Below are positions 446-41,115 of a stretch of DNA of 64,000 nt, piece by piece; the first letter of the stretch is position 1, and every line of letters begins with the position of its first letter. Source of the DNA: Lycorma delicatula (lineage: Eukaryota > Arthropoda > Insecta > Hemiptera > Fulgoridae); contig NC_134455.1 of assembly GCF_047948215.1 (NCBI RefSeq), positions 322,082,147 to 322,146,146 of the forward strand. The letters run 5' to 3'. A program made the translations under genes and the position numbers. The notes under the pieces are model-generated. The model saw nothing but the letters and a program-made list of their open reading frames with translations. It searched no databases and was not told the DNA's origin.

Positions 446-2080
446 GCATGTGTATGTACGTATGTATGTATCTTAAAAACGACTAGCCGGAGGATGTTGA
501 AATTTAGCATTTAAGTCTGTTGTTACAACTAGTTGTGCACCTCCCCTTTTGACTGCACCAAAAGTATCCAAAAACCAAAACTTTTGATTTTGGACTTTTT
601 CTTAACTGCAGTAATAAGCTCTCATTGACAGCTTTTTAAAAATATATCATAAGTGGTACTATTTTCATCAGTTCCAGAGTTATAGTGAAATAAAATTTTA
701 ATTATGAAATATTTGGATCTTACAAGGGAAGGCACATCAGTTTGAATCAGACTTCATCTGCTTTTATTTTTTTTTAGCTTTTTTTTTATTTTATTTTTTT
801 TTACCTTTTTTTAATTTAAGTATATTGATTTATTAATAATTATTAACCCATGATTATAAAAAAGATTACAATAATTATTCAATAACAATAACAAAAAATA
901 TATATATATATATAAAAAAAATCAGAAGTTATTAGTGAAATAAAATATTTAAAAATGTGTAAGTAATTTAATAGGCATTATTAAATATGTATATATATAA
1001 TAGATTTGGTGAAACATCTGATTATTTAATATTAATTGAAAATTATAATTTAGAATAGTATTATTTTTGGATTTTCTAGTTTAATTTCTGTTTAATTTTA
1101 TTTAATTATTCTAAGTTTAATTTTATCTACATTAAAGTTAACTACAGAATGACTGAAAAATAGGCCTTCACAAGAACAACATATACCACTGAGGCATACA
1201 TGCCCAATTTTTAATAAATTGCAAAAAATTCTCATCTTTTAGTTCATTACTCCTCTGATATTGTCAGACAATATTCTCCCTAAGTCAGAGTTGATCATTG
1301 TTTCGTTTATTTGTTTATTGTTGCCAATCGTTTAATCGCTCTTTGGTTTGACATAATTCTTTTGACTTTAATTTGTATTCACTTCTAGTTTTCAAATTTT
1401 CTTTCACTTTATATTCATTATCCTCTCTTAATCTTTTTATTCTTTTTTTTTGGTCTTAACATTTTCTTCCTCTTTATATTTATCATCTTCTCTAATGTTT
1501 TTATTCTTTCCTTGGTTTTAACATTTTCTTCCTCTTCATATTCATCTTCTTGTTGTTTTTTTTTAGATATATTTCTTCACGTTATCTTTCTTTTTCCTGT
1601 ATTATTGTTTCTTTTTCATTTTTGATCATTCATCGAATAATCCAATAATAGAAACTGAATATTTTACACCGTAAGATTGAAATTAACATTTGTAACCAGT
1701 ATACAGGAGTTCACTAAATAAAATATTTAAATTATTATTAAATGTTATTTGTACAACACACCAGAAATCTAAAACTTTTGTTAATCAGCAATTCACAAAG
1801 ATACGAATAATACTGATCTAGTAATACGAGTAATTAAAGAACTTTTACTCTATCCTAATATTTCATGTAAGATTGCTGAATTAATAATTGTATAAATATT
1901 TGATGTTAATAAAAACTAATATTTTGGCAATTGTGTAACTATCCACTTTATTAAAGAATTGGAGGATCTTATTTCACTTTCAAATGTAATAAGTTTAAAT
2001 GAAGTGCAGCAAAAATTGTGTAAATGTAATTTAATAGGTGTACAAGGAAGTTATGTGAGGCAACATCAGATTTTCTCATT
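446..2080 (-). mobile_element. Helitron/Helentron-like element, long relic (left copy)
   Basis: Inverted copy of the sequence at the right edge (62.5-64.0 kb), with the same order of blocks. The outer block (480-730) is shared with 59.16-59.46 kb: GGATGTTGAAATTT, CTAGTTGTGCACCT, CTTAACTGCAGTAATAA, GTTCCAGAGTTATAG. Next come AT-rich filler, then on the minus strand a relic frame with a Cys-containing block (about 1150-1250) and a Lys/Arg/Glu-rich tandem segment (about 1370-1570). The inner end (2020-2080) is also in the 59.7-kb copy. The K/R/E repeats followed by a zinc-finger-like block resemble the N-terminus of Helitron Rep/helicase proteins (family knowledge). The class assignment is tentative. 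Confidence 0.5.
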
Positions 2081-9700: not shown

Positions 9701-12700
9701 GCCATTGATACAACTATGAAAATATATATTTTTTTAAAAACATTTAGAAAATCTCTTTTTCAGTCTAGAAGGACTAGACAACTAAGGTTTTACCTGAAGT
9801 TCATGAATTTGAAGTTGGTATTTATGTAAAGATGCCTGAACTGCAGATATTGTGCTCTCAGCAAATGCTGGAGATGTTGGTGTTCGTAAAGAGCGTTTTG
9901 GTGATCTAAACAAACAAAGGTATCCTTAAACATAATTTACAAAAAAAATCACAAAAGTATGAAAAATAAATAAATTCCTGCCTTCAATTTATTCTTTGTC
10001 AATAATGAATCCTTCATCCTCTTCTCCCCGACAGTCTTATACTTTAAAACTTTGGGGATTGGCGTCCCCACAGCCCTAGCCTCTGCAGCTTCTCTTCCCA
10101 TTACACTCAGAGCTGTGGAACACTTTACACTATACACATACACTACACCAAGAATACTAATACTACATAAATTACAGCATATAACCTTACACAACTACAC
10201 TTCAACATCTTACATTACTTCTTTTTACACATATACTCTGTAGTGTTGCGACATCTTATGAAATGCAACCCAATGTGCAAACTATTGTGCCAATGGATGG
10301 ATAGCTCTAGCTCTCTTTTTGAGTCTCAAAAATGATAATGTCTAGGCACCTGGGCGAACCCAGTTATATTTAGCTCTACTTCCAGTATGCATGCACTCTG
10401 CTGGAGTAATCCCTTATGTCGCTGGTACTTGTGAGAACCATATCCCAATCTCTAATCCTTTGGCAGTTGTTGGTCCAGTTGAAAAACCAACAACTTCGGG
10501 AGTTTAAAAAGGCTTCAACCAACCTTGTCAGCCAAAGATATGACGAATGACGATGAAGGTAGAAATATAATAGAGAAAGGTAAAATATCTAATGTGTGTT
10601 TTCATGTAGTTAGATATAAAGAGGAACATTCTCAGGAACAATCTTCCTGAGAATGTACAAGACTACACTTCATTTACATTCATACATATCCTCATTCATC
10701 CTTTGAAGTAATACCTTACAGTGGTTCTGAAGGCTAAGCAGAAAAAGAAATAAAGAGGAAGGTTTGCTAAAGTTTCCCCATTTATAATAAATAAGTGCAT
10801 AGTGGCTCACCAAAATCCATCAAAAATGTTAGGAGTGGTGCCCTTCTAATTGAAGTAAATAAAGAGCAGAGTTAGAAGCTCCTAACTCTTCAGAAATATA
10901 GGAAAGGATGAAATGTTAATGGAGCCCCATAATTCACTGAATTCCAGCAAGGCAGTGATCTTCTGCTGTGACTTGGCTGATAGTGATTTATTAGAAATAT
11001 CTGAAGAGCTATCACTGCAGTCTGTTTCATCTATGCTGAGGATCATGAGAAAAGCAAATGGTGTTGATGTGCTATCATTTTCACTTATCTTAACCTTCTC
11101 GACTCCGCCTGAGCAAATAAGAATTGGCTACCTATCTGTCCATGTGCGATCGTATATACCAAACTCAAAATGCTGCTTTCAGTGTCAGGGTTTTGGTCAC
11201 AACAATCATAGTTGCACAGGAACAAGTCTGGGTACATTATGGCTGTATAGGGCATGATGGTAGGACATGCGCTGAAGTAGAAAACTGTATTAATTGTAAA
11301 GGAATACAGAAGTATTTTTTATGGCCACAAAAATTATTCAATGTAATGTTAGTAGTCTCCATTCTTGCTGTGAGGATATTGAAATCCTAATAAAGGAAGA
11401 AAATCCTCTAATACTGTGTCTGCAAGAGACTCACCTCTGCCCTCAGGATGATGTGTCCTTTTGCAGATACGCCTACAAAAGATGTGATTGTCAGATGCAT
11501 CCATTTGTGCTCACAGCAACTGCCAAATAACAGTGCACCACATCCTTATAGATTATATCTGTTATATGACATTGCATCACAAGTTTAAATCACAAGCTTG
11601 GGGAGAAGCAGCAACCATGTCTTATCCTATTTCTAGATCAACTTTTCAGTTTGTGATAATATTAATATAATCTATGTATATATTTATGGATTTTCAGTAA
11701 AATAAACACTCCTCTATTATCTATAAGAGATAAAATGAAAGAAGTTTTATTATAATTTGTGGTAAAATGTTTTATGTAAAATGCATTTGAATTACATTAA
11801 ATAATCCCGAAATATATTGTTGTCCTGTCTAAATTGTATTATAGTGTAGTGTATTTATTTTATGAAGTATTTTGTATTGATTTAAACCAGACTTAAAGAA
11901 TCTTCATATGACCTGTCATGTCCATAGTGGAAAAATAGAATTCTTCTTTTTCTACTCACTCATCACAAATGAGATGTCTAAGAAAGACAATTACCTAAAA
12001 TGATGTCAAGATATTCTGTTTTATACCTTCTTTCTTTTTCTGTTTAGCCTCCAGAACCACCATAAGTATTACTTCACAGAATGAATGAGGATGATATGTA
12101 TGAATGTAAATGAAGCGTAGTCTTGTACAGTCTCAGGTTGACCATTCCTGAGATGTGTGGTTAACTGAAACCCAACCAACAAAGAACACTTGTATCCTCG
12201 ATCTAGTATTCAAATGTTTTATACCTTGGAGGTACAGCTGGTGTCTGGCTGAGATGAACATGAGGTGAAGGTTGAGCAGAATCAGTATCACGATTCTCAG
12301 CATCCTGTAATACTGCATGAGCAATATCTCTTAAAGCACCTTGGAGCAATTCAACTTCCTCCTGAAGATGATTTATCTGCAAAACTCCAGATTCTGCTTG
12401 GTTACAGCGTTCTTCCTAAATAAAAAGTTATATATTTAAAATTCTGAACAAAACAATTAAAAATAATAGCACTTCAGTAACTGAAGACATCAATTCAGTA
12501 AACAAAAACAATAGCCTTCAGCAACTTGAATAAAAATTAAAAAACCTTCTGTAACAAGAGATGAAAAAGAGAAGAGAACCACTGCTTGGAAACATGAATG
12601 ATGGTCTTAAGTAGTTAATGTAATAAATATTAGTAATGATACTATAGTACATTTACAGTGTTTCACTTCACTAAATATTAATTGTCAATGATTTTTAATT

Positions 12701-15700: not shown

Positions 15701-18700
15701 TATTAATACACCTGAATCTCATGGAGGGAAGTAAGTGAAAGTGCATAAATCAGATTATTGAAACAGTAGTCAATAAGGATAAGATTCAAAGGTATTCCTT
15801 TGTCCATGATATAGTGAAATTCTTACTACTAACAACTTTCTTAGCAAACACACTTTCGTAATGGAAAGTTTTATCCTGTAAAATTATGTTGGTTTATTTG
15901 AGTCAATTATGTCCTGATTTTTATTTTTAGTATTAATTATGTTTTATTTCCTCTTATTACTGAACATTTTTGATAAAGATAGCCACCAATAAATCTCATT
16001 ATTCTAAATATAACATTTTTTAGTAATGAATACTTATTAGAGAGAGAGAGAGTAATAGCTTTCTAGAAAGCACATCGCTCATCATGATATATCATTATTA
16101 TTATTTACTTTATTTCTGATTACATATTTCATAGTTTACAATAATAATAGTTACATAAAACTAATATGAAAACCATCAATAGTTAATTATATAACTATTA
16201 ATAGAAAAATAACAAATTTTCTTACAATTAATAAATGCTATTATACTGAGCAAATGTAACACTCTTTTATGCATGTATTTTAATTCTGATGCCACAAACA
16301 TAAACATGAACAAATGAAGTTCAAAAGAACTACTTTTCAGTTAAAAAGCAAAAAATAAAAAATTGTGATAACTTAATATTCTCAAAGTTATTATGCACGT
16401 ATTGTTTAAAACCATAACTTAATAACAAAAATCAATTTTTTCCATTGATCATAATATAAAATTTTATATCATAGTCATATGTAATGTTCTAGTGCTGATT
16501 ATAATATAAATCACGTAAACTGAACAAATAGTAATTATTACAGTTATAATTCGTGTGACTGTTTGCTACATACAAAAAAAAACATTGTATTTTTAATTAC
16601 AGTTTCTTCCTCTCTCTCACTTATTCCTCCTTGTCATTTCTTTACAGTATTACTATTAAGTATTATATTAGACTGATAAGTTCAGCCACATCACAGGATT
16701 AATTTTTACATTTTCATTTCTATAATGTACTTTTTATCATTTTAAATGCTTATTCTAAATCCAATTTTAAGAAATTGCACTGATTAATTAACAGTACTAT
16801 GCAGCAATAGTTTTTGTCTTTTTAGTTCATCATATTGAATATTTTTATGTATAATACACATATTTTTTCAGTTTATAATTCATTAAAGCCACTATATCAA
16901 GTCATTATATTTTTAACAATCTATTAAAAACATAAGCAAAGGACAATTCTTACCAAAATAAAATTATATTTCTAAGCTGGCTGCTGACAAAATTTTATAT
17001 TTGGCTAATGGCAGCAGCCAAACAAAAATTTATGAATTGCAACAGACTACTCTATCCAAAATAAAAGAAAAATTTGAATGTTATTAAAAGCATAATCAAA
17101 TAACTAACATTTGAACTAAGTTTAAAATGTTAATTATGAAAATGTTTAACCTGCACTAGTGTCAGGTTTAAACAAACTACATCTCAAAATTCTATAATTT
17201 CAGGATTACTGCTGATAGAAAAGACCCTCACTAACTGGATATAAAATTTGTACATCTGAACTGATTAAAAAGATTTTAAAAAATGAATAAGATTCAAAAA
17301 ATGATATATTACTAAACAACATCTATTTTTTTTTAATACTTTTATAAAATATTTATTTATCATGACTTGGGTATTTATTAAATCTGGATAACCACTTTAT
17401 TCACACAAAAAATCAAACCTATTTATCAGACCTATTAATTAAATGGGCATTTCTTGTAAATGCAAGAGAAAAAATGAAGAATAGTGTTTTCAGTGTGATA
17501 GATCTTTTTTTCATTCAGATTGGGAGTTGCTTTATAAAAGGAAAATTTTGGGATTTTTGTAGTATTCCCTATATGAAAATGTATAGATTTATATATAGAT
17601 GTCTCACAAGGAAATGGAAAAACTTTAAGAATACATTCTGCTGGTGAAAATAATGAGAAAAGTTCATTTAAACATAGGTCTGGAAATGCTTTGTTTTCGA
17701 GTTATGCCTATCGAAGGATTTCACCTGGATTTCAGCTCTTCTAATAAAAAGAAGCCCTACTATAATTTTTGGGACCCAGATATTTTTGAGAGTAAAGTTG
17801 GTGGTCTCTTATGTAAATTGAGCTGGAAAATAGGATAAAACAGATTCTACAACTGCAACTCCAGTAGTTTTTAAGATATCCAACCAACATAAAACACAAA
17901 ATTCAAAATCAAAAAAACGTTTTTTTTTTAGGTTTGTAGTACATAATAGCTTTGTTAAATAACTAATAAATGTGGACAATTTAGTAACAAAACATGTAGA
18001 GAATTTAATTCTGAGAAAATTAATGTAACTATACCCAATGAAAAGTAAATAAAAGCTTTTTAAAAATTGGTTTTTTATTGAATAAAAACAGACAGTAAGT
18101 TGACTGAAAATCATATTATTGTTTCTGTTCCTAATAAAAGCTATTCTTAATATAGCAAAACAAAAAAAAAAAAAATGTATGAAATTATTAATTGTAACAG
18201 AATAACAAACCTCAGTTACAGTAACTGTTCAAAATTCCCTCCTTCACCATGTACACAGCAATCTGCCTGAGGTAAAATATTTCCGATGGTTTTCTGTATT
18301 ATCTCGGGATCGTCTCACACAAATTCATTAGCATTTCATATTGAATTTATATTGAAATCTTTCACTAGCCATAAATAAAAAACAAAGCGTTTCCAGACCT
18401 AATGAACTTTTTTCATTATTTTCACCTGTAGAAAATGTCCTGAAAGTTTCTCAGTTTCTTCATAGGACACTCTATAAGCAATTCTATCTTCAAAATTTAT
18501 AATCTTTTTACAAATTATTTACTATTACTTATTACCAAAATGAATTATAATTACTAAATGTTTTATGATAAAACTTTTACTAAAATTTTTCATTCACTTA
18601 TTACTGTTTTACCAATAAAGAAATAATATGAAAGAGAGAAAATTCTATCGACCTTCTTCGTTCATCTTCAAGTCTTTGAAGTGCTGTTTCTAAATCCTGA

Positions 18701-21681
18701 ATTCGTTCCTCACGAAGCTCTCGTAAATGTTGCTGTGCAGCATCTAAAGCAGAGCTAGGTGCACGTGTTGGAGCTGGTGCACTTTCTGCAACTGGCAGAC
18801 CTCCTGTCTCCTCCACTTGTCCCTCCAGCTCACTGCAACGTTGCTTATATTGCAATACCTTATAAAAAAAAGCAAAAAAAAAAAAAAAAACATTTTTCCT
18901 AGAAGCTTTTTTTGATAGAGATTATTACAGATACTTAAATTAATTAACTGTTTGTTTTTTAGAGGAAAAAATTGTGTTGCATCAAAGGGATCTGATGGAG
19001 TTTCACACATAGGCCAAAAAATATGAAGAAGTTAAAGTTTAATTTATATTTAAAGTTAAGCTAATAAATGCTTTTATTTGAGGTAAAATTTTAGCAATAA
19101 AATGAATAAACAAAAAATTTAATTTTTCATACCAACTAATTACTAATGTTAATCTTCACTTCTGATTACAAAACATTCATCTAAGAGACTATTCATAGTA
19201 CCTCCTCCAAATATTATGCCACTTACCACCCTGTCAGAAAAAACAATTTAACAAGTTTCACTCTACCTTCCTGCATTCAGTGTGAGTTACAACAGCTATT
19301 TTTACCTTTCTTCCTTAATTTTATGTTTGAAATGATTAAACACAAAGGCTTGCTGCTAGGTTTGCTTCTCTTGTGTGAGATACATTTTTATAATTAACTG
19401 AGTTAGTAATTACTCTATAACATTATTTTCTTAAATAATTATTGCTTTCACTTAATCTGCATGGCTTTCTATTTTTGTATGCCCCAGATTCATTTACATT
19501 TGATCAATTTGTTTTATCTAATTTTTTTTCTATCATCCTTGTTTAGTGTTCTAGAAAAAGGATGAAAATATAAAGATATTGTGCTTAAAATTACTTTTTT
19601 AAAAGAGAAGATAACAAATGTTTGATAAGGAATCTCTAAGTTAGGCTAGACAAATGGTGAAAGAATGGTTCTTCTATTTTAACAATGTGCAAAAAGAAAA
19701 GAATTATTCACAGTACAACAGTATAACCCAGAAAAAATTAAACAGTGAAATGTGTGACAATTTGTAAATACGCTATAATAACGTCTACTTCAGGAGAGAG
19801 AGGAACCAGTTTTTGACCAACCTGATCATTCTAGTATTTGATATTCTTATAAAATTGATGGTGCGCAATCACAACAAAAAAGGAGGCAACATAAGAATTG
19901 ACAATATTAAAAAAATTATAAAAAATCAATAAAGAAATGAGAATGACCTGTTTTCCTATAAACGCAACACAATTTTAATACTATCTGCAGGTATGAAGGA
20001 AAATCCTCCCACCATAAAAAAAAATGTTTGAATCAATTATCAACAAAACTTTAAGGTTGCCATGAGTTGTGAAAATTTGAGTGTATGTTATGCACAATCA
20101 TCCACTACTAATATTCTTGGTTAATTAAAATAATTAAGAAAATCCTCATTTATTGAATGGACTTCTGCAAATATTCCACCAGGCATACAAAGGCATAATA
20201 TTTGCACATTATTGAAGTCATAGCATGATTATGCATTAAATAGATTCAGAAGATTAGAAATCCTACAATTCATAAAAATTTGCTATAAATCTTAAGTTAC
20301 ATAATGAAGTTACATAATGATGGAAGAATGGTTTTTCTTATTCTACACATAGTAGTTAAGCAACGTAAGCAATAGGAAAGAGTTAATTGCAATACAAGCA
20401 TTGGCATGCTGCTGTGTGCCACAAAATGAATTGAATGATGAAAATAATGAAAGAATAATGTAACATCTGGAACCACTTTTATTCAATTTCTTAGATGAAA
20501 AACCAAAAGGAAGCACAAAATTTACTCCTCTATTTGTACTCCAAGAATTTTAGTATGGTTTAGTTTCACAGAGGGAACCAAAAGCAGACCTAAATATTTC
20601 ACAAGCCCAGTGGCGGATTTCTAAATAGGCTAGGTAGGCTATAGCCAACAGTGGCAAATTTTCAAAGGCAGTAATGGGTTGCATGACGGCAGCTCGGTGG
20701 CAGAGTGTGGCGGCAGTGCTGGCCAGTCGTTCAGCCTGCAGGGGACACATTTGTAAATCCACCTCTACGCAAGCCTAAACTCGCAAACGAACCATTTTCT
20801 GACCTATGCTTATATAATTTTTTTTATTATTTTTGGCTATAGAATCATCTCCCAAGAGACTGCCATGCAATTTGGAATCACTTTGTATAAACAACTGTAT
20901 GTACACATATATATTTTATGCAGTAAATTTTATAAGTGAACCCCTATGAGTTAAACGAGTTAACACTGGAGCAGTAATAACAATGACTGATCCATAATAT
21001 GGTTTAATTCAGTGAAAATAAATCCCTTAACAGATTGACAAAAGACAATAAAGATTGTATGAAATTTTGGAAACTAACCCACAAACCCAATAATAAATCA
21101 ACAAAATGAAACCAAAAAAAAGGGAAACATTACTTTAATATGACACTTAGAGAAAGGAATTATTAATGCCTTATTAAGTATGTATTATGATCAACTGTTT
21201 GTGTATATTCATTGTTGATTAATGGAATTCTTTTATGGGTTCATCCACTGACAATCAGATAGTATTTGAATAAAAAAAAAATGTTCATGTCATTAATCAT
21301 GTTCATCCACGATATTCATGTAAGCTCAGTTTTAGACATTTAAACACACTTGCATAATAATAACATTTTTTTCTTGTTAAACCTCTGGGACCCCCATTAG
21401 GTAGGAATTGCTTCAAAGGATGAGATGAATGATTTGTAGCGTGTATGAAAAATGCCATGCCTGACCAGGATTCAAACCGGGGACCTCTGGATGAAAGGCA
21501 GAGATGCTACCACTCATGCCACTGCTGCTTTTGAAAAACTCCCTTGTTATGGTGTTATAAAGTATTATAATAAACTTCCTCTAAGTTCAGAAAAATTGAT
21601 TCCATCAATAATTAATAACATTCTATACATATAGAATGTTAAGAATATATAGAATATAAGAATGTCTCTATCTCTATCACA

Positions 21682-35075: not shown

Positions 35076-35769
35076 AACTTTCACTACTAAATCGACTGGG
35101 AGACCCTTTTGCAATACGGTGGTTGCCTTATAGGAGATTGTTTTAAAAACACCAATGCATACAATTAAGGTTCTGCCCTGGGAACTACTTAAATTTTGAA
35201 GAAGTGTTCTATTCATATACAATCTATACACCCAAACGAGTCCCGCGAAAGAGGTCATGCTTTTGAAGACAACTCGGTACATGATGTACATTTGACGGCC
35301 CGACAACCCATAGTCTTTCCGAGCAATCCTCCTAAGTTTGTGCATCACTGAGACGGCATCCAGCGTTACTTGCCTAATGTGGTTGCCAAACAGCAACTTT
35401 TCATCAAACAAAACACCTAGATACTTATGAACTCTAACTCGGATGATTACACAGCCTTTATATTTAATGTGAGTGTTATGACTGTACGATAATTTGTCTG
35501 CACCCTGGAGAAGCATAAACTTCGTCTTGGTCACAGAAATCTTTAAATTTTGAATGTCCATCCAGCCCTCTGCGGTTGACAAGGGCGCCTGTGCTCAATC
35601 TTCTAGCTGTGGTCGTGAATTACCACAAACTAAAAGGAGACAGTCATCGGCGAAAGCCTGGGACGTGACCCCTTCTGGAAATGTCAATCCCAGAAATCCG
35701 TCGAATACCAGATTCCATGAGCAGGTTCCATGGATGAGCAGGACATCGAGAGCGGAACCCTGCGGGCTT

Positions 35770-35791
35770 CCCCTTCCCCTTCCCCTTCCCC
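35770..35791 (-). repeat. G-quadruplex-type repeat within the RT relic
   Basis: Four CCCC tracts separated by TT on the plus strand, i.e. four GGGG tracts with 2-nt loops on the minus (coding) strand. Encodes the extra Arg-Gly repeats in front of SPQGS. Confidence 0.9.
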
Positions 35792-35817
35792 TAGTTGTGG
35801 AGTTTTCCACAACTAGG
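35790..35817. repeat. 12-bp perfect hairpin next to the G-tract repeat
   Basis: CCTAGTTGTGGA (35790-35801) and TCCACAACTAGG (35806-35817), separated by 4 nt, form a perfect stem adjoining the GGGG repeat. Confidence 0.9.
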
Positions 35818-35904
35818 TGCGCATCCTTAAACAGAGCCGTAGGGTAAGACAAATAGTCACGTACCACGGCCTGCAGGGCTACGAAAACATTGCGAAGTTC
35901 CAAC

Positions 35905-36621
35905 TCATAGAGGACAAAACTCAAACACAAGGAAGGAAATGCTGCCTCTATGTCTATGAAAATTGCCAAAAAGATTTTTACAGTCGGCGCTTTTCACCTC
36001 GGCAAGAGCATTTAAGATGCAATCCTTGGTACCAACTCCTTTTGTGAAGCCATACTGGCCTCGATTTAGAAAGCAGTTCACCTCAATGCATTCCCAGAAC
36101 TGTTCCACAACCAGCCTTTCAAGCAACTTGCCGATTACCGGCAAGAGGCTGATGGGCCGATAACTGCCTACCTCACTCTGATCCTTACCTGGTTTTAAGA
36201 GCACCTTTACTAAAACCACTTTCCAACAAGTCTGGAAGCAGACCCAGCTTAGGCAACCCGAGAACAGCCTGCCAAGCTGCTCCTTTACGACAGGCAGTAG
36301 ATGGTAAAATATATCCGGATCAAGTTGGTCAATCCCCGGTGCTTTTTTCAGTGCCAGTTGAGAAACCACTCGGTCTATATCTACGGGATCCACAGCCCGC
36401 ACGTCAGGGAATGGTGTCTCACCCGTCCTGACGCCGACTTCTGCTTCACCCTCCAGAGCACCTGGAAACAGAATATCCAGGAACGCCTGGTAAGTCACCA
36501 CAGATGTTAAAGTGTGGTCACGACCACCAAACCCGCATCGAACTCTGGTCAGCACGTACAGTGGCTTTGGCTGGTAACATAATTTTGCGAGCTGCCAGGG
36601 GTTGCGCTGCAACTCATGCAT
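35905..36621 (-). pseudogene. Reverse transcriptase, fingers to palm (R1-clade)
   Basis: 238-codon open frame with YRPISLLPVIGKLLERL and QYGFTKGVGTKDCI, conserved RT blocks 2 and 2a. The frame shifts near 35950; the palm continues in the overlapping frame 35969-35595 with IDIEAAF, SPQGS and the catalytic FADD box. A run encoding RGRGRGRG is inserted just before SPQGS. Intact Asp residues are visible, but the frame is broken. Confidence 0.85.
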
Positions 36622-36640
36622 GGAGTCTTGTCATAATGGC

Positions 36641-39839: not shown

Positions 39840-41115
39840 GATATACTTTTCCCAACGTGTGACAAATTTTTGCATTCCGTCACTGAAAAATGCTGGTGGT
39901 CTTTCTCGGATCCAAGTGGCAGGCCACAGCTTCCTTGACCTCACCGTCGGTGGTGTAATGATTACCTTTGAGATTCCTCTTGAAATGAGGGTAGAAGTGG
40001 CACACCTTCTACGGATAGAGGTAGTTCAGTTCCTTTGTTTCGTTAAGTCCTTTCAGTCTTACTTAAGACTCGATAAGATGTGTTTTGTTTTTAGTTCATT
40101 AAATAGTAGTATACCGATAGGAATATCACTCGTGGCATTCGCATCGGTGGTATCCTGGCCGAGGCGGACTGGAATATGCCAAAAGCCGAGGTTTCAAAGG
40201 TGACCTTCGGTAAAGCCCATAAGGGCTAGGAACGGAGGGAGTGGCGGAGGGTATCTTCCCCCTACGGGGGTCAGGAGCCAAATCCGGCGAGTACGGCGGA
40301 TGCGGAATAGGGTCAAACGTCAGCTTGCGGAGAGCCTCTGTAGTGGCTTACGGTGTGTGAGGCCAAGATTATGGGCATGGTAGTTTTTCGAACGCGACAT
40401 ACTCGTCGTCTGAGGTGTCTTAACATCTGAATGTACCGTTAGGAGTTCACAGTCGTTCCATTTTTCAGATACTCAGTCACATAAACGTGTTTGGCATCCC
40501 AAAACACCGTCAAAAGAAGTTTCTTCGCTGAGGTTTGCGTTTTGAATTTGTTGAGTTTTGGCAATTCGTAATGTCTCTTCCCATGTCAATTCCATGCTTT
40601 GCCTTTTTTCTTCCGGGTCGTAATGATGTACCCAAGTCTCATCCCCGGTCATAATATTGAAAAGGAAGTCGTTTCCTTCCGCACGATAGCTCTGTTAAAG
40701 TTCTTCGTAACATTAGACACGACGCTGCCTGTGTACGTCCGTCAGTTTGCACGGTATCCATCGTACACAGATTTTACGGCAGTCCAATTGCTCGATAATA
40801 TGGGGCCTACTCGTTCTTTAGATATGCCTAACCGAATAGCGATGCGTTGCTGGGTGATTCGCCGGTCACTTTGCAGCAAATTGTCCACCTCCTTCTGATG
40901 CTTCTCGTCAGTCACAGAAAGTGGCGTCCGCTGCGAGATGCATCCTCAATTGCCGCTTTACCAGCTTCACAGTCGCTAAATTTCAACGTCCAACTATTCA
41001 CAATACTCTTGTCAACAGTTTCACTACTGTAAACCGCTTTTAAACGATGAAAAATATTCGTAGGATTCACATTTTCTGTAGTTAAAATTCGATCACTGCG
41101 CACTGTTTTAACCAC
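39840..41115 (-). pseudogene. mariner transposase, inactive
   Basis: N-terminal HTH with HRLKAVYSSETVDKSIV and WTLKFSDCEAGKAAIED. A frameshift at about 40915 follows, then RITQQRIAIRLGISKERVG and VRWIPCKLTD. The first catalytic region is FLFNIMTGDETWVHHYDPEE. The second region, HDNARPH in the family, is degraded and its Asp is lost. The third is HPPYSPDLAP near 40280. The reading then enters the insertion and resumes with HFKRNLKGNHYTTDGEVKEA and WEKYISVNGDYIE. Several stops. Confidence 0.9.
40000..40260. mobile_element. Unidentified insertion inside the mariner transposase
   Basis: Lies between the codons for SPDLAP and those for FKRNLKG, which are adjacent within the family. GC-richer. It has TCCTGACCCCCGTAGGG on the minus strand, similar to TCCTGACTCCCGTAGGGG at about 45776 on the plus strand, with further related words (CCTCCGTTCCTAG / CCTTAGGTTCCTAG). 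Probably one repeat family, class unknown. Confidence 0.55.

Follow-up and report, generated by a model that had tools for sequence, protein, structure and literature searches.

A sense-oriented SINE between two identical 5' splice sites at an exon-intron border of a rootletin gene

A SINE that lands on an exon-intron border raises the question of how the exon keeps a usable 5' splice site (donor), and which site is used if the insertion has copied it. The question arises at a rootletin locus in the stretch of DNA analysed here, which is 64 kb long and is called the window. In the first-pass annotation, a SINE at this locus was proposed to have duplicated 13 bp of its target, including the donor of a rootletin exon, so that the exon retained its donor and a second one came to lie beyond the SINE, with an in-frame stop codon between the two.

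The identity of the gene was determined from peptides joined from the minus-strand exons of the window. These matched positions 1-187 of the 188-position PF15035 profile (E=3.5e-71), with a score of 239.5 bits against a curated cut-off of 36. With a joined query of 1176 residues, 154 proteins were found at E<=1e-10 among 7985 scored candidates, and the best 120 of the 154 homologues were headed by insect rootletins of about 60% identity, the top one showing 61% over 99% of the query. The annotation of the gene as rootletin was thus confirmed by both the domain and the homologues. The exons were intact on both sides of the SINE-bearing exon, and coiled-coil exons could be followed on the minus strand as far as about 57 kb below the window start. 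The parts of the gene used in this work are as follows (a slash marks an exon end).

18653-18858, minus strand: rootletin N-terminal exon (PF15035 at E=1.8e-14 alone), outside the segment copied to two further loci, C2 and C3
15469-15634, minus strand: rootletin exon, part of PF15035
14922-15131, minus strand: rootletin exon, part of PF15035
14017-14169, minus strand: preceding rootletin exon
12225-12415, minus strand: rootletin coding exon of 191 nt with an open frame, an AG acceptor and a phase 2 end, AAG/GT
9906-12224, minus strand: intron of 2319 nt with the exon-side donor, or of 2121 nt (9906-12026) with the far donor, both lengths by subtraction
9794-9905, minus strand: next rootletin exon, A TCA CCA AAA CGC ... 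CAG/GT

The SINE-bearing exon ends with CCT CCA AG/GTATAA in phase 2, and the following exon starts with A TCA CCA after tttgtttgtttag, which gives the joined peptide PPR-SPKRS. R or K was found directly before SP[K/R]R in 14/14 aligned insect rootletins, hand-picked for spread from the 120 listed homologues. With a strict regular expression, the junction was recognised in 9/120 of the listed homologues, since other insects vary beside the junction. The exon end at 12225, as first annotated, can be regarded as sound because of the codon phase to the next exon and the junction conserved in all 14 aligned proteins. The donor CAG/GTATAA is used at another exon of the same rootletin gene; therefore the donor of the SINE-bearing exon is an ordinary one for this gene.

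The features at the border itself, in the order of the gene strand, are the following.

12215-12227, minus strand: exon-side copy of the duplication, AAGGTATAAAACA, holding the donor GT at 12224-12223
12203-12205, minus strand: in-frame TAG in the SINE, met if the exon-side donor is skipped
12030-12214, minus strand: SINE in the same orientation as the gene, with a body truncated at the 5' end and a tail rich in GA, placed by genome matches and by alignment with longer copies
12017-12029, minus strand: far copy of the duplication, AAGGTATAAAACA, with the second donor GT (12026-12025) and an AAG that may belong to the SINE tail

The insert between the two copies of the 13-mer is 185 bp long (12030-12214), and on the gene strand it lies in sense orientation, head first, and ends in AAACAGAAAAAGAAAG. 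It represents the commonest kind of dispersed repeat seen in this analysis of its own genome, where at least 41 matches were obtained (40 of 3829 first-look candidates were scored). An exact 19-base core of the SINE had 24,230 genome matches (12,144 forward and 12,086 reverse), and its reversed control had 0 on either strand. In 304 kb, 23 SINE pieces of at least 100 bp were counted, which extrapolates to about 166,000 in 2.2 Gb from a non-random sample of DNA that includes all three copies of the rootletin SINE locus. These dispersed copies, together with the flanking duplications of variable sequence described below, identify the insert as a SINE, as had been proposed. When it was aligned with copies from the window and from beyond it, most of the others proved to be about 100 bp longer at the 5' end, and the window copy is without this head. 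The window SINE differs at 9/185 positions from the majority sequence of 25 relatives, which were taken from the 37 other full rows among the genome matches listed.

A-box-like and then B-box-like strings were found in 9/29 SINE copies, a set that does not include the partial SINE at 10630-10750. ARAGORN reported 0 genes on the majority head, and Rfam matched no tRNA at E<=1 in any of 18 loci, so that neither confirmed a tRNA. The family resembles the insect tRNA-type SINEs HaSE1 and HaSE2 (PMC3272025) and Talua in being short and dispersed and in making target duplications, a likeness by description only. MicroRNA and snoRNA names assigned by Rfam to SINE sequences scored below the gathering scores and were disregarded. 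At one copy (L048:341-405), two SINE heads apparently stand head to head and form a perfect-looking hairpin, and the Rfam microRNA call there was below the gathering score.

The flanking repeat was then located on the forward strand, where the 13-mer is TGTTTTATACCTT. A scan of the 64-kb window found it exactly at 12017-12029 and 12215-12227 only; the six other matches each had one or two mismatches. Its gene-strand form is AAGGTATAAAACA, and its length is at most 13 bp, as the adjacent base differs on either side of both copies. When one fixed rule was applied to all of the 29 other SINE copies, 15/29 proved to be flanked by an exact repeat of 9-15 bp, with a median of 11, compared with 27/812 controls in which flanks were mispaired between copies. 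Flanking duplications are thus normal for this SINE family and do not represent a chance match.

The exact length of the duplication depends on where the SINE tail ends. In the far copy of the 13-mer, the AAG comes right after the GAAAG of the insert. AAG stands directly after the aligned body in 9/29 other SINE copies and is missing there in 20/29, and GAAAGAAG is present in the tail of 4/29. Since AAG can likewise close other copies of the SINE, these three bases of the far copy may belong to the tail, which would put the target duplication anywhere from 10 bp (GTATAAAACA) to 13 bp (AAGGTATAAAACA). Of the annotated duplication of 13 bp that flanks the SINE exactly, the exact 13-mers abutting both ends of the insert stand, and the true length may be 10 bp. 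The donor string is identical with either length, as AAG/GTATAAAACA is found on both sides of the SINE. The repeat reads as the last three exon bases plus the donor on the gene strand, in agreement with the original description.

The exon-side donor and the identical string reported beyond the SINE share the same sequence from -3 to +10 and lie 198 nt apart, and models using only those bases therefore cannot separate them. With the far donor, the exon would end at 12027, so that 198 nt would be added and the exon would measure 389 nt instead of 191. Translation past the exon end runs R Y K T F E Y and then stops at the TAG (12205-12203), seven codons on from the split Arg codon, consistent with the stop noted a few codons behind the exon end. 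The 24 nt upstream contain 21/24 purines for the far donor (AGGCTAAACAGAAAAAGAAAGAAG) and 11/24 for the exon-side donor. Papers on splicing would call the far donor intron-proximal. A donor in that position is described as promoted by SRSF1 or by enhancers that lie between two donors, and hnRNP A1 as favouring the other, non-intron-proximal donor (PMC5585400). The far donor is thus not obviously the weaker competitor, since its position is the one that SRSF1 and enhancers favour.

The region on the exon side of the insert (12228-12700) had three matches in its own genome, from three candidates: C1 in the window, C2 and C3. The SINE and both donors were present at 3/3 loci, and a SINE-free (empty) site was not found among these three exon-side matches. 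Over 491 bp, C2 showed one difference from C1 and C3 showed two (0-2/491 among the loci), and the 191-nt exon was identical at all three. The identity of the three loci was 99.2% over 2.1-2.5 kb, and that of the larger blocks between them was 96.9-98.9%, with only pieces of >96% identity and >150 bp counted. Of eight exons tested in 80 kb around each locus, five were missing at C2 and four at C3, and two N-terminal rootletin exons were absent from both. The N-terminal part of PF15035 was found at C1 only, among the three loci. On account of these missing parts, C1 is read as the full rootletin gene, and C2 and C3 as partial copies. The copied part of rootletin extends from about -14360 to 18176 in window positions and lies on two other chromosomes, at C2 (L009-L011) and C3 (L022-L024). 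Both copies stop at an A-rich point (window 18176) and continue with a common sequence that is absent from the window.

These comparisons also bear on the age of the insertion. As the SINE is 9/185 off the family majority and the loci are 0-2/491 apart, the insertion is older than the duplication of the locus, and the gene at C1 stayed open after it. By our own arithmetic, about one in four pairs of 13-base duplicates that change by about 5% per copy would still match without any selection, and therefore the identity of the two 13-mers is no sign of selection.

We consider the following account, read from sequence, to be the probable one. A copy of a very abundant SINE, without its 5' head and in sense orientation, inserted within the first bases of the rootletin intron, presumably by LINE-type target-primed reverse transcription, a mode suggested by the duplication, the A-rich tail and the truncation. 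The insertion duplicated 10-13 bp and left one AAG/GTATAAAACA on each side, so that the exon keeps its own donor with a second, identical one 198 nt downstream. The exon-side donor would still make productive mRNA, because the frame of the gene is open elsewhere and the conserved PPR-SPKR arises from no other junction, and the far donor would give at most a minor isoform that ends at the TAG. Later, the site was copied together with the SINE and part of the gene to two other chromosomes. The donor may thus be said to have been 'saved' by target duplication, as first suggested, and 'poisoned' transcripts could arise from the far donor. The purine-rich stretch and the intron-proximal position of the far donor count against this account and could favour a rival reading, that of a poison donor.

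In that reading, the far donor would be often used, the GA-rich SINE tail would act as an exonic enhancer and many transcripts would stop at the TAG, so that rootletin output would be lowered or the protein truncated. The identity of both donors over -3 to +10, the 21/24 purines before the far one (AGGCTAAACAGAAAAAGAAAGAAG), its closer position to the acceptor and the described promotion of an intron-proximal donor by SRSF1 or an enhancer between the donors (PMC5585400) are all compatible with it. We nevertheless regard it as unlikely, since frequent use of the far donor would harm a conserved gene with otherwise intact exons, the insertion is old enough to be about 5% off its family, the exon would be 389 nt instead of 191, and the enhancer role of the GA-rich sequence is presumed here.

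A broader and quite improbable reading is that the SINE tail mimics an exon end (MAG/GT) and that the family could land on sense-strand donors above chance, adding poison donors to genes. If the target were nicked at an exon end so that the strand finished in CTT, it would pair with the tail GAAAGAAG; landing would then leave a donor on either side again and supply the far one with a purine-rich enhancer. The exact 26-base SINE tail followed directly by GTRAGT had 0 forward and 0 reverse matches genome-wide, which speaks mildly against frequent landing on strong consensus donors, in a pattern that demands one exact tail when 20/29 copies are without AAG directly after the body.

Zero-length recursive splicing, in which the far AAG/GT would first act as an acceptor and the SINE would be removed as a mini-intron, would rebuild AAG/GTATAAAACA exactly on joining the exon-side donor to the far AG/GT. 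It is very unlikely, as only 2/20 pyrimidines precede the far AG compared with 12/20 before the real acceptor at 9906, which makes it a very poor acceptor. A chance repeat of two 13-mers unrelated to the SINE insertion fits the eight window matches at up to two mismatches, against a shuffle average of 7.1, and was rejected as very unlikely in view of the exact copies at the two ends of the insert only, as at 15/29 other copies against 27/812 controls.

The preferred account, with a productive exon-side donor and a second donor made by the SINE, combines on the donor side elements that are known from other systems. In canine merle, a SINE is described at the border of PMEL intron 10 and exon 11 with a 15-bp target-site duplication beside the original acceptor, and splicing shifts when the SINE tail is long (PMC7349775). 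Both cases share a SINE on a splice site, a target-site duplication and a choice of site that decides between normal and aberrant protein. In merle, however, the acceptor side is struck, the SINE is reversed and the competitor is a cryptic acceptor within the SINE, chosen according to tail length (PMC7349775), whereas in rootletin the donor side is struck, the SINE is in sense orientation and the donor competes with its own duplicate. Introners likewise can draw splice sites from target-site duplication; they make new introns, and many of their families are described with DNA-transposon signatures and short duplications (PMC9860276). Unlike these, the rootletin SINE enlarged an existing intron and no intron was gained. 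An introner identity was rejected, as the conserved exon junction marks an existing intron enlarged in its 5' part and the AG at the far GT has 2/20 pyrimidines in front of it. In DOK7 intron 4, two competing donors on one exon also decide between full-length and truncated protein; they lie 11 nt apart and are of unequal strength (PMC5585400), whereas the rootletin donors do not differ, stand 198 nt apart and owe their pairing to a retrotransposon. Among the papers listed by searches on duplicated identical or retroelement-duplicated donors, no SINE-duplicated donor was found, which is no proof of absence.

The event is tidy but expected rather than improbable, since tens of such events would occur by chance: about 15-57 random SINE insertions per genome should have a 13-bp duplication that wholly holds a donor, given 80,000-166,000 SINE copies and an assumed 80,000-150,000 donors. 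It offers a clean picture of how a retroelement can strike a splice site without killing the gene, because target duplication returns the donor of the exon. It also provides a natural test of donor choice, in which the same 13 bases stand 198 nt apart on one exon and only position and surroundings decide. Alone, it amounts to a single event in a genome rich in repeats and adds nothing to what is known of rootletin.

Other elements were observed in and near the window. Two reverse-transcriptase fragments (RVT_1) lie at 35595-36630 on the minus strand (E=3.7e-6 and 1.3e-4, below the curated cut-off). An open stretch at 40476-40694, also on the minus strand, contains MTGDETWVHHYDPEEKRQSMEL and resembles a mariner-type transposase. 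Two short and very charged open stretches of about 46 and 52 residues at 1318-1576 (minus strand) resemble one at about -44.1 kb and are probably a repeat.
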